The notes under the pieces are model-generated. The model was not told where the DNA came from. It searched no databases and worked only from the letters and a program-made list of their open reading frames with translations. This document shows positions 1-34,898 of a DNA stretch of 64,000 nucleotides, piece by piece. The DNA comes from an uncultured Pelagibacteraceae bacterium (lineage in GTDB: Bacteria > Pseudomonadota > Alphaproteobacteria > Pelagibacterales > Pelagibacteraceae): assembly GCA_902578935.1 (NCBI GenBank), contig CACHEU010000001.1, positions 62,001 to 126,000 on the forward strand, given 5' to 3'. Position 1 is the stretch's first letter. Every line of letters begins with the position of its first letter. The translations under genes and the position numbers were made by a program.

Positions 1-70
1 TTCATCTAGCGAATCACTTACTTTACTTTGTATCATTTATAAAAAATTGATAAAGTTTTTAAAAGAAAAT

Positions 71-1093
71 ATGAAAAAAGCAGTTATTTTATTTAATTTA
101 GGTGGTCCCGACAACTTGGACAGTGTAGAGCCATTCCTTTTTAATTTATTTAATGATCCGGCAATTATTAGCATTCCATCATTTATAAGATATCCTTTGG
201 CAAAATTTATTTCAAAAAAAAGAGCACCTATTGCCAAGAATATTTATAGAGAAATGGGAAATAAATCTCCCATTCTTGAATTAACAGAGGAGCAGGCAAA
301 AAGTTTAGAAAAAAATTTATCAGCCAAAGGAAACTACAAGTGTTTTGTTGTTATGAGGTGTTGGCATCCACGAGCGGCTGATGTAATAAAAAAAGTGAAA
401 AAATATAATCCAGAAGAAATAATACTTTTGCCGTTGTACCCACAATTTTCTGCTACAACTTCAGGGTCATCAATTGATGAATGGAATCAAGTATGTAAAA
501 AACAAAATTACAAGATAAAAACCAAAACAATCTGCTGTTATCCAACGGAAGATCATTTTATAGAATCACATGTTTGTCTGATTAAAAAAACAATAGAAAA
601 ACTGAAAGATAAAAATTTTAAATTAATTTTTTCTGCACACGGTTTACCAGAGAATAAAATTAAAAAAGGTGACCCTTATCAATGGCAGGTTGAGGAAACA
701 GTAAAAAAAATAATGTCAAAATTATCAAATGAACATTTGGATCACACAATAACCTATCAGAGCCGAGTAGGACCGATGAAATGGATTGGTCCATCTACAG
801 ACGAAGAAATTATTAAATATTCAAAAGAAAAAAAGGGTTTGATTATAGTTCCGGTAGCATTTGTTTCTGAGCACTCAGAAACTCTGGTTGAACTAGATAT
901 TGAATATAAAAAATTAGCTGAAAAAAACGGGTGCAGTTTTTATAAGAGAGTGCCAGCTCTAGGAATTGAAGAAAATTTTATAAAAGCATTAGCAAAATTA
1001 ATTTTAAAACCAGAAGAAAGAGGAGGCTTCGTGTCTTCTTTGGTTTGTCCAAATAAATTTACCAAATGTCCTTGTAGAGATGTTAATATATAG
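71..1093 (+). CDS. hemH: Ferrochelatase
   Basis: Inserts ferrous iron into protoporphyrin IX, the last step of haem synthesis. The 340-residue product has the family's SAHGLP segment with the catalytic His, followed by KGDPYQ, then SRVGPMKW and a later SEHSETLVELD segment with the conserved Glu. I start at the ATG at 71 (MKKAVILFNLGGPDN) rather than an in-frame TTG at 47, because LFNLGGP is the normal N-terminus. The C-terminus has three closely spaced cysteines (about 326, 333, 335), which may bind a [2Fe-2S] cluster as in some other ferrochelatases. hemJ follows after 2 bases, so the two are probably co-transcribed. Confidence 0.95.
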   Translation: MKKAVILFNLGGPDNLDSVEPFLFNLFNDPAIISIPSFIRYPLAKFISKKRAPIAKNIYREMGNKSPILELTEEQAKSLEKNLSAKGNYKCFVVMRCWHPRAADVIKKVKKYNPEEIILLPLYPQFSATTSGSSIDEWNQVCKKQNYKIKTKTICCYPTEDHFIESHVCLIKKTIEKLKDKNFKLIFSAHGLPENKIKKGDPYQWQVEETVKKIMSKLSNEHLDHTITYQSRVGPMKWIGPSTDEEIIKYSKEKKGLIIVPVAFVSEHSETLVELDIEYKKLAEKNGCSFYKRVPALGIEENFIKALAKLILKPEERGGFVSSLVCPNKFTKCPCRDVNI

Positions 1094-33052: not shown

Positions 33053-34102
33053 TTATAAATTACTAACAACAAATTGAATTCCTAGCCATCTCCAGCTTCC
33101 ATCATTTTCTCTTAATGAACAGTTTATTCTGCCTCTTTCTGTTGTAAATTTTCCATTTAAAATTATCTTCAACTCATTTTTTTTATCAAAATCAAGTTTT
33201 GATTTTCTCCATTTATCTTCTTCATTAGAATAACAGTTAATATTTTTTAAATTTATTGGGTCTTCAAAAAAAATAATTTTTACCTCTGGAGGATTATTTT
33301 TCTCAGTCAGATACCTTTCCTCTGGAATAATTTTTTTATATGGAAATGGAATTGTTTTCAGTAAATTTTTAAATCTTTCCATTTTTCCATATTTTTCGTT
33401 GATAGGAAATCTTGGCAGTGTCAATTTATTTTTTGTCTTATCAATAACTCCAGAATGTTGTCCGAATGCATATAAAAAACCTAAATCCTCAACTATTTTT
33501 GTATAGGATTTTTTATATTCTCCGAAAGGATATGCAAAAAATTTTGTTTCATAGTTCATTTTTGTTTTAAAAATTTTTTTGGCAGTTTCTAAGTCTTTTT
33601 TTATTTCTTCATCTGTTTTATCAACAAGGTAACCATGCGAATGACTATGATTTCCAATATGAACAAAATCAAACTCAGAAATTTCTTTTATCTCATCCCA
33701 GCTCATATAGCCATTAGCACCTATGGTTTCTGTATTAATAAAAATAATAAAAGGAATTTTTTCTTTTTTTAAAATTGGCCAGGCTTTATCATAAAATGAA
33801 GAAAAACCATCATCTATCGTAAGTAAAACTTTTTTATCAGAATTATTTACATTAATAAATTTTTCAAATTCTTTATGAGAAATAAACTTAATTCCGGAAT
33901 TTTTCACCAAATCTATTTGTGATTTGAAATCTTGAATTTTAATGTTTGTTGAAGGATACTTATTTTCCTCAAAACGATGATACATTAAAGAAATAATTCC
34001 ATAATCTTCAATATTTTTTGCATGAGAATAATAATTGTTTATAGGGAGCAAAAAAACTATAAATGAAATAATGATAAAAGATTTTTTAATAATTAATTTC
34101 AC
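33053..34102 (-). CDS. Polysaccharide deacetylase family protein
   Basis: Secreted or membrane-anchored NodB-fold enzyme of about 349 residues. An N-terminal hydrophobic signal (LIIKKSFIIISFIVFLLP) precedes GIISLMYHRF, the TIDDG metal-site motif and the HSHSHG motif. The substrate may be a glycan N-acetyl group; this is not certain. I prefer the GTG at 34102 over a TTG two codons upstream. Either way its 5' end overlaps the divergent tsaB-like gene by about 32 bases. Confidence 0.8.
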   Translation of the reverse strand: MKLIIKKSFIIISFIVFLLPINNYYSHAKNIEDYGIISLMYHRFEENKYPSTNIKIQDFKSQIDLVKNSGIKFISHKEFEKFINVNNSDKKVLLTIDDGFSSFYDKAWPILKKEKIPFIIFINTETIGANGYMSWDEIKEISEFDFVHIGNHSHSHGYLVDKTDEEIKKDLETAKKIFKTKMNYETKFFAYPFGEYKKSYTKIVEDLGFLYAFGQHSGVIDKTKNKLTLPRFPINEKYGKMERFKNLLKTIPFPYKKIIPEERYLTEKNNPPEVKIIFFEDPINLKNINCYSNEEDKWRKSKLDFDKKNELKIILNGKFTTERGRINCSLRENDGSWRWLGIQFVVSNL

Positions 34103-34454
34103 AGGCAAAAACGATTCAATTGGTTTAAGAGTTAATAATAATTTTTTTGTTAAAAAAATTCAAACTAATATAAGAAATAATGGGTTGCTTGTGAACAATA
34201 TATTTGACCTTATTAAAGAGAAAAAAGCCAAGGTGGATAAAAATTTTTCCGTTATAGTAAATATTGGCCCAGGCAGTTTTTCAGGAATAAGAATTTCATT
34301 TGCTATAGCAAAAGGTATCAAAATAGCAAAGGGAACCAAGATTTATGGATACAAGGATTCTCACTTAGCTGAATTTAACCTTAAAAATATTGAATTATTA
34401 ATTCAAAAAAACTTAATAGAAAACAATTTGATTAAACCTGTGTATTTGAGCTAA
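34071..34454 (+). CDS. tsaB: Shortened TsaB-like protein (t6A synthesis)
   Basis: The product is only 127 residues, about half the usual 200-230. It keeps the N-terminal actin-like strand (FLIINFTGKNDSIGL, where most TsaB have AIDTS) and the diagnostic GPGSFSGIRISFAIAKGI. The C-terminal half is missing, with a real stop and no frameshift remnant before fur. TsaB scaffolds TsaD in forming t6A at tRNA position 37. The start at 34071 is needed to include the first strand. RimI, often next to tsaB, is absent. Confidence 0.75.
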   Translation: MIKDFLIINFTGKNDSIGLRVNNNFFVKKIQTNIRNNGLLVNNIFDLIKEKKAKVDKNFSVIVNIGPGSFSGIRISFAIAKGIKIAKGTKIYGYKDSHLAEFNLKNIELLIQKNLIENNLIKPVYLS

Positions 34455-34469: not shown

Positions 34470-34898
34470 ATGAGCAAGATCGAAGATAAGTGTAAAGAAA
34501 AAGGTGTAAGACTGACTGATCAAAGAAAGGTCATAGCTAGGGTTATGTCAGATTCAAAAATTAAGTATGGTTCAAAAGATCATCCTGATGTAGATGAGCT
34601 TCACAAAAGAGTAAATTCAATAGATGAAAAAATAAGTATCGCAACAGTCTACAGAACCGTGAAACTTTTTGAGGAGGCTGGCATAGTAGAGAAGCATGAT
34701 TTCAAAGGTGGAAAAGCAAGATACGAACAATCTCCCGACGAGCATCACGATCATCTTATTGATGTAAATAGTGGTGAAATTATAGAATTTGTAAACGAAG
34801 AAATTGAAGAACTACAAAAAAAAGTTGCTCAAAAATTGGGATATAAATTAGTGGACCACAAACTTGAACTATACGGAACAAAAATAAAAAAAAATTAA
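34470..34898 (+). CDS. fur: Fur family metal-responsive repressor
   Basis: DNA-binding regulator of 142 residues. The winged helix (GVRLTDQRKVIARVM..SIATVYRTVKLFEEAGIV) is followed by the metal-binding segment SPDEHHDHLIDVNSGEIIEF. The usual CxxC structural zinc cysteines are absent, as in some alphaproteobacterial Fur/Mur proteins that sense iron or manganese. The neighbours tsaB and miaB match the standard alphaproteobacterial fur locus. The identity within the family (Fur, Mur) cannot be decided here. Confidence 0.88.
   Translation: MSKIEDKCKEKGVRLTDQRKVIARVMSDSKIKYGSKDHPDVDELHKRVNSIDEKISIATVYRTVKLFEEAGIVEKHDFKGGKARYEQSPDEHHDHLIDVNSGEIIEFVNEEIEELQKKVAQKLGYKLVDHKLELYGTKIKKN

Follow-up and report, generated by a model that had tools for sequence, protein, structure and literature searches.

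The tsaB gene that lies ahead of fur in the window (the whole stretch of 64,000 nucleotides that was analysed, from an uncultured Pelagibacteraceae bacterium) probably encodes a working TsaB with a single lobe. This protein would bind TsaD by way of the usual helical bundle, its other lobe having disappeared from streamlined genomes. The anatomy, recurrence, multiple origin and constraint of the short protein and the presence of its partner genes were computed, and its binding to TsaD and its activity in t6A synthesis are what we infer. TsaB, an essential helper protein of tRNA modification, is described as not being part of the TsaD nucleotide site, and its established role is to form a helical bundle with TsaD (PMC4330362, PMC9654439). 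The short TsaB keeps what this role needs and is therefore read as a working one-lobed TsaB. The initial annotation proposed that either a minimal TsaB has evolved or another factor substitutes for the lost half. The first of these proposals is supported.

The tsaB gene and its neighbours

The order of genes in the window is trpS, nifU-like, bax-like, the polysaccharide deacetylase gene, tsaB, fur, miaB, phoH, ybeY and lnt, where the names other than tsaB, fur and the deacetylase were assigned by reading the sequences. This order is largely conserved among relatives. The window genome is 1.0 Mb in 16 contigs. The features discussed in the text are as follows.

33053 to 34108, reverse strand: divergent gene for a polysaccharide deacetylase, overlapping the tsaB start with its 5' end
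34071 to 34454, forward strand: tsaB, one-lobed form, 127 residues and stop, with a start backed by relatives
34179 to 34220, forward strand: helix alpha1 (residues 37-50, AlphaFold/DSSP), predicted to bind TsaD; L40 and L47 of V. parahaemolyticus YeaZ correspond to V41 and I48
34266 to 34292, forward strand: GPGSFSGIR motif (residues 66-74); G66, P67, G68, F70 and R74 are invariant in 50 sequences
34278 to 34331, forward strand: helix alpha2 (residues 70-87, AlphaFold/DSSP), predicted to bind TsaD; I74, I78 and L82 of V. parahaemolyticus YeaZ correspond to I75, I79 and I83
34362 to 34373, forward strand: junction (about residues 98-101), the site of about 76 extra residues in full-length relatives, from alignments and tail lengths
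34380 to 34406, forward strand: retained C-terminal helix (residues 104-112), the second piece of the N-subdomain, from alignment and model; L110 is invariant in 50 sequences
34434 to 34451, forward strand: retained C-terminal motif KPVYLS (residues 122-127); Y125 is invariant in 50 sequences and model confidence is low at 124-127
34470 to 34898, forward strand: fur, the downstream neighbour of tsaB, 15 bp away

The start of tsaB is the ATG at 34071, and the conserved protein of the relatives (MIKDF...) begins at the counterpart of this codon. Position 34035, where the initial annotation began the gene, is the first TTG to follow a stop codon; it lies in frame upstream of 34071 and was rejected as the start. 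The stop is the TAA at 34452-34454 and leaves a gap of 15 bp to the fur ATG at 34470, as had been noted before. The 5' ends of tsaB and the divergent deacetylase gene overlap by about 32-53 bp in the three genomes inspected (window 34071-34108, L032 3291-3343, L037 4106-4143), so that the start of either gene falls within the other. The start of the deacetylase resembles a signal peptide.

Identity as TsaB

The top NCBIfam match of the 127-residue protein is TIGR03725 (TsaB), with an E value of 8.4e-12 over residues 6-95. This match covers positions 2-92 of the 212 in the profile and, at 45.5 bits, misses the cut-off of 69.3; the Pfam TsaD profile, at 19.1 bits, also misses its cut-off (24.8). 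The GPGSFxGxR motif is present within an RNase H-like N-subdomain, the locus (ahead of fur and miaB) and the descent are common to the full-length TsaB of relatives, and in the window protein all five positions of alpha1 and alpha2 at the TsaD/TsaB interface are hydrophobic. The two-lobed ASKHA architecture is absent, as the tail after the motif is 62 residues long and the structure model has one lobe. The protein is a one-lobed variant of TsaB by descent and locus, and it is filed as a non-canonical member because it lacks the two-lobed architecture and scores below the curated cut-off. This leaves the claim that the protein works like a TsaB untouched. The genome that encodes the short protein gave no other match to the TsaB profile.

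Loss of an internal segment

The short proteins match the full-length proteins of G005 (203 residues) and G031 (201 residues) over residues 1 to about 99 and then over the last 27 or so. Residues from about 100 to 127 of the window protein (...NIELLIQKNLIENNLIKPVYLS) align to the C-terminus of the G005 protein (...NIEILIKKNLIENNLIKPVYLG), and about 76 residues are absent from the middle of the short TsaB as compared to full-length relatives at the same locus. C-terminal truncation is ruled out since the C-terminus of the short protein aligns to that of the full-length relatives; as judged from these alignments, the loss is an in-frame internal excision with both ends kept. The earlier description of a half-length TsaB was correct as to the short ORF of about 127 residues and the GPGSFSGIR motif but not as to an N-terminal half, as the C-terminus is present and the middle is lost. 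The distance from the GPG motif to the stop is 61-65 residues in 38 short forms, 135-138 residues in nine full-length rows (g1, g2, g4, g11, g13, g14 and g16) and 147-150 residues in four genomes of family f2. In g5, g12 and g15, each represented by a single genome, there are long frames of about 171-188 residues.

TsaB of A. aeolicus is reported to have an N-subdomain made up of residues 1-90 and 161-195, with residues 91-160 forming the C-subdomain (PMC11648230). The missing stretch matches this published C-subdomain and the remainder matches the discontinuous N-subdomain. The same paper reports that the C-subdomain of A. aeolicus TsaB hardly superposes on that of E. coli, and it describes the published C-subdomains as variable in fold and not the chief TsaD contact (PMC11648230). 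The C-subdomain is also the least conserved part of full-length SAR11 TsaB: among 10 full-length SAR11 relatives (45 pairs) the mean pairwise identity of the excised stretch is 0.20 versus 0.37 for the N part and 0.36 for the C-terminus.

The C-terminal tail of TsaB is reported to contact TsaE and tRNA, and its deletion spoils tRNA binding but not TsaE binding; in T. maritima the tail Leu189-Gly206 matters for tRNA binding (PMC11648230). The initial annotation held that the second half is needed to contact TsaE; the contact has been assigned to the extreme C-terminal tail and not to the C-subdomain. The equivalent of T. maritima Leu189-Gly206 is mostly absent here, the aligned range ending at chain residue 193. 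The tail is short also in the eight full-length Pelagibacteraceae proteins that were aligned, so a short tail is found with and without the excision. Profiles of full-length SAR11 TsaB gave no confident alignment of the C-terminal segment with the solved chains listed, and the homology of this segment is judged from the alignments within SAR11 together with the match in fold.

Distribution of the short form

The family-wide search covered 397 genomes, of which at least 330 had a match, and was followed by targeted sequence fetches. In the genus of the window (g1), 24 of 31 genomes were matched and 23 of the 24 encode a protein of 127-129 residues, the exception being G005 with 203. Across SAR11, the length from the start of the match to the stop is 124-129 residues in all 80 loci taken as the best 80 of 214 confirmed; these loci derive from single cells, isolates and MAGs, one of them (L073) belonging to the record named HIMB058, and the genomes with the short form include the single-contig G032, G069 and G077. 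The short form was present in all 12 fetched genomes of g3, 14 of 15 fetched genomes of g4 and one genome each of g6 and g17. The full-length form was present in g2, g11, g13, g14 and g16, as well as in G005 (g1) and G388 (g4). Full-length genes in relatives had been named beforehand as a sign of strain-specific decay; a few relatives are indeed full-length here, whereas the gene is short in nearly all of g1 and g4, throughout the fetched g3 genomes and in the genomes of g6 and g17. A sequencing frameshift, also considered at the outset, does not account for a short gene that recurs in 23 of the 24 g1 genomes with a match and in 80 of 80 best loci.

The drafts of G005 and G388, and those of the one genome each of g6, g14, g16 and g17, are 56-79% complete. 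As the flanking genes share contigs with tsaB, wrong binning is harmless to the comparison and a chimeric contig is not. G005 carries two slightly different full-length tsaB-fur copies on contigs C30 and C12 (L191, L192), which suggests a mixed or duplicated assembly. One in-frame TAA lies inside the short tsaB match of G344 (C7:30500-30877). In the g7 genomes G036 and G073 (L266 829-1446, L267 829-1446), the ORF before fur is about 185 residues long from its first Met and has FNCGIKNTILYR in place of the NxGPGSFSGIR of TsaB, the GPG motif being absent; it is possible that this ORF is a TsaB that lost its hallmark motif. Four genomes with no TsaB match (G070, G030, G004 and G014) gave weak matches to the window fur at 30-33% identity, and their tsaB locus probably lies in an assembly gap.

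Beyond the family, a sample of the class was searched (144 genomes, at least 142 matched) and no credible short TsaB was found among the matches listed. The sole listed frames under 185 residues, in G493 (140 residues) and G486 (166 residues), were rejected as their matches end within 25 bases of a contig end. Twelve class genomes with weak matches were re-examined and have TsaB-like frames of at least 185 residues, or TsaD-length frames only.

Number of origins

The tree from eight genes flanking tsaB has 57 rows, of which 41 are short, 15 full-length and 1 unassigned; in it the form changes six times and five of these changes are forced by well-supported branches. The TsaB tree, built from the shared columns (56 rows: 40 short, 16 full-length), requires three changes of which two are forced, and none of 200 TsaB bootstrap trees has a single form change. 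A single origin of the short form is rejected by the AU tests, in which one clade of all short forms gave p values of 1.3e-6 for the TsaB core columns and 4.0e-7 for the eight flanking genes. One g1/g4 clade is not rejected by TsaB (p 0.63) and is rejected by the flanking genes (p 1.2e-6). As the two data sets disagree, either further excisions or an exchange of long and short alleles would have taken place. For g3/g6/g17 the AU test was done with the flanking genes only (p 3.5e-40), and the 13 rows of these groups fall together in the TsaB tree with support of 88/86. The groups submitted to the AU tests were defined with the trees already in view, and in the TsaB tree 19 of the 53 inner branches are open and six end branches are long. 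At least two excisions are required, both of which end at about the same structural boundary. Such repeated excision suggests that the second lobe is dispensable.

A stronger form of this conclusion is that the second ASKHA lobe was excised at the same boundary independently in at least four SAR11 lineages, and that the resulting single-lobed protein works fully in t6A synthesis and converges on a minimal TsaD partner of the Pcc1 type. We put this forward tentatively and give it rather less than an even chance. If true, it would constitute a natural domain-deletion experiment in abundant marine bacteria.

Structure model and the TsaD interface

The AlphaFold model, built with 50 aligned sequences, is a compact single lobe with a pLDDT of 88.4 and a pTM of 0.84, and its last four residues have a pLDDT below 50. 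The elements assigned (AlphaFold/DSSP) are strands 5-9, 16-21 and 24-29, helix 37-50, strand 60-64, helix 70-87, strand 90-94 and helix 104-112. In a comparison with the PDB by VIA-align, TsaB/YeaZ chains fill the first 15 rows (Z 11.9-13.8, with 119-126 residues aligned), for example with model residues 1..127 placed on -1..193 of 6n9a_B, and chains of TsaD, Qri7 and Kae1 come next at Z 11.2 and below. The first 29 rows of Foldseek are likewise TsaB/YeaZ. The KEOPS rows among the structure matches listed are TsaD/Kae1-type chains by length, not Pcc1.

The contact with TsaD is reported to be made by helices alpha1 and alpha2 of the TsaB N-subdomain (PMC11648230, PMC4330362). Both helices are kept in the short TsaB, and the earlier statement that the second half is required for the contact with TsaD is not supported. 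Five hydrophobic positions at the interface are reported for V. parahaemolyticus YeaZ (PMC3157347), and V41, I48, I75, I79 and I83 occupy them in the window protein. In the short lineage of g3/g6/g17 (13 rows), position 41 is T or S in 7, position 75 is N or T in 12 and position 79 is T in 5; position 75 is N, T or S in 11 of 16 full-length forms as well. On the side of TsaD, changing F100 or S97 of the E. coli protein to Glu is reported to abolish dimerisation (PMC4330362), and these residues align to T108 and S105, respectively. According to its title, a paper on S. aureus found the C-terminal domain of Gcp (TsaD) critical for YeaZ binding, a claim that is harder to reconcile with an interface confined to the N-lobe.

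Our preferred reading of the short TsaB can be put as follows. Both pieces of the N-subdomain (residues 1 to about 99, then the C-terminal helix with KPVYLS) are kept, and the C-subdomain of about 76 residues that was inserted between them has been excised in frame. Helices alpha1 and alpha2 of TsaB would form the usual four-helix bundle with alpha2 and alpha3 of TsaD, and this bundle would set TsaD up for tRNA and TsaE. It is expected that t6A37 is still produced by TsaC, TsaD, the short TsaB and TsaE. Streamlined SAR11 genomes lost the C-subdomain at least twice.

Constraint, partner genes and alternative explanations

The short TsaB is under selection, with a median dN/dS (NG86) of 0.24 over 1131 pairs, and 11 columns do not vary among 50 sequences, L110 and Y125 in the C-terminal part that was kept being among them. 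It is less constrained than its neighbour fur: for the same 391 pairs tsaB has a dN/dS of 0.243 and fur one of 0.060, a fourfold difference. This difference is one of the points in favor of the main rival explanation, namely that the short protein is a relaxed relic. TsaB would then be on its way out of SAR11, with TsaD acting largely alone (like mitochondrial Qri7/OSGEPL1 and in some Mollicutes) and the short protein weakly needed. The reported absence of TsaB in three hemoplasmas and of TsaE in another Mollicutes group (PMC4014445) and the g7 ORF that lacks the GPG motif at the tsaB position (G036, G073) would also fit. We regard a relic as unlikely in view of a dN/dS of about 0.24, invariant residues in both retained segments, a frame that is kept to the same end in each of the 80 best loci, and the occurrence of TsaE in 12 of 12 genomes.

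TsaD and TsaC were likewise each present in the 12 genomes searched, which include that of the window and of which 7 carry a short TsaB. In G090, a single-contig genome of the long-TsaB group g15, the TsaD match (C1:342420-343288) is in two frames with a TAA within the second piece; the gene may be frameshifted or split, or the sequence may contain an error.

The short protein could instead have been repurposed, leaving t6A synthesis for another role, e.g. as a homodimer or a regulator. Consistent with this are the low family scores and the first strand, where the IINFT noted in the initial annotation is present in the window protein and the Asp is absent in 27 of 27 g1 and g4 short forms of the tree set. 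The Asp is kept by short forms of g3 (9 of 11), g6 (1 of 1) and g17 (1 of 1) and is lost in the full-length G388, so the change from Asp to Asn does not go along with the excision. The locus, the GPG motif and the interface helices are all kept, TsaC, TsaD and TsaE are present and the genome yielded no second TsaB-profile match, which makes a new role quite improbable.

An even more remote explanation is a split function, in which the lost lobe is supplied in trans by another protein. With the G005 lobe as the query, G005 itself and the full-length G388 (E 3.5e-7, 38% identity) were recovered, whereas no credible detached copy was found in G000, G027, G033 or G077 (best E 0.03). The other factor proposed in the initial annotation was thus not found in these four genomes. 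This failure is weak evidence because the lobe evolves fast, and a search by sequence could miss a copy that has diverged; nothing positive favors a split function. The published C-subdomains, variable in fold and not the main TsaD contact (PMC11648230), also argue against it.

Finally, although the window genome is in 16 contigs, an assembly artefact, a frameshift or strain-specific decay is refuted by the recurrence of the same length across 23 of 24 matched g1 genomes and 80 of 80 SAR11 loci (best of 214), single-contig G032, G069 and G077 included.

Comparison with known systems

No prior description of a short SAR11 TsaB or of a one-lobed TsaB was found in the literature searched, which was largely open-access. 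The repeated loss of a lobe, with the TsaD-binding lobe and the partner genes kept, points to which part of TsaB matters, and the short TsaB offers a small natural protein for the reconstitution of t6A synthesis.

Canonical TsaB/YeaZ (TIGR03725), as in E. coli, T. maritima and A. aeolicus, shares with the short TsaB the GPGSFSGIR motif, the N-subdomain fold with its C-terminal helix and the TsaD-binding helices, binding by the short protein being predicted. The short TsaB differs in that the C-subdomain (91-160 in A. aeolicus) is absent, there is one lobe instead of two, the tail is short and the family cut-off is missed. In KEOPS, Pcc1 is reported to bind the N-lobe of Kae1 through a helical bundle that mimics that of TsaD and TsaB (PMC4330362, PMC9654439). 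Pcc1 is a small partner of Kae1 that fills the role of TsaB in KEOPS, and a short TsaB that did likewise with TsaD would be its analogue; Pcc1 is described as unrelated to YeaZ (PMC4330362), whereas the fold of the short TsaB is that of the N-lobe of TsaB.

The t6A machinery has also been reduced in the small genomes of Mollicutes, where whole subunits are reported to be lost, TsaB in hemoplasmas and TsaE in the Pneumoniae group (PMC4014445). There, whole genes were lost in parasites, whereas in free-living SAR11 one lobe of one subunit was lost and all four genes are present in the 7 of 7 short-TsaB genomes tested. Streamlining in these ocean bacteria thus acts inside a gene, along a domain boundary.
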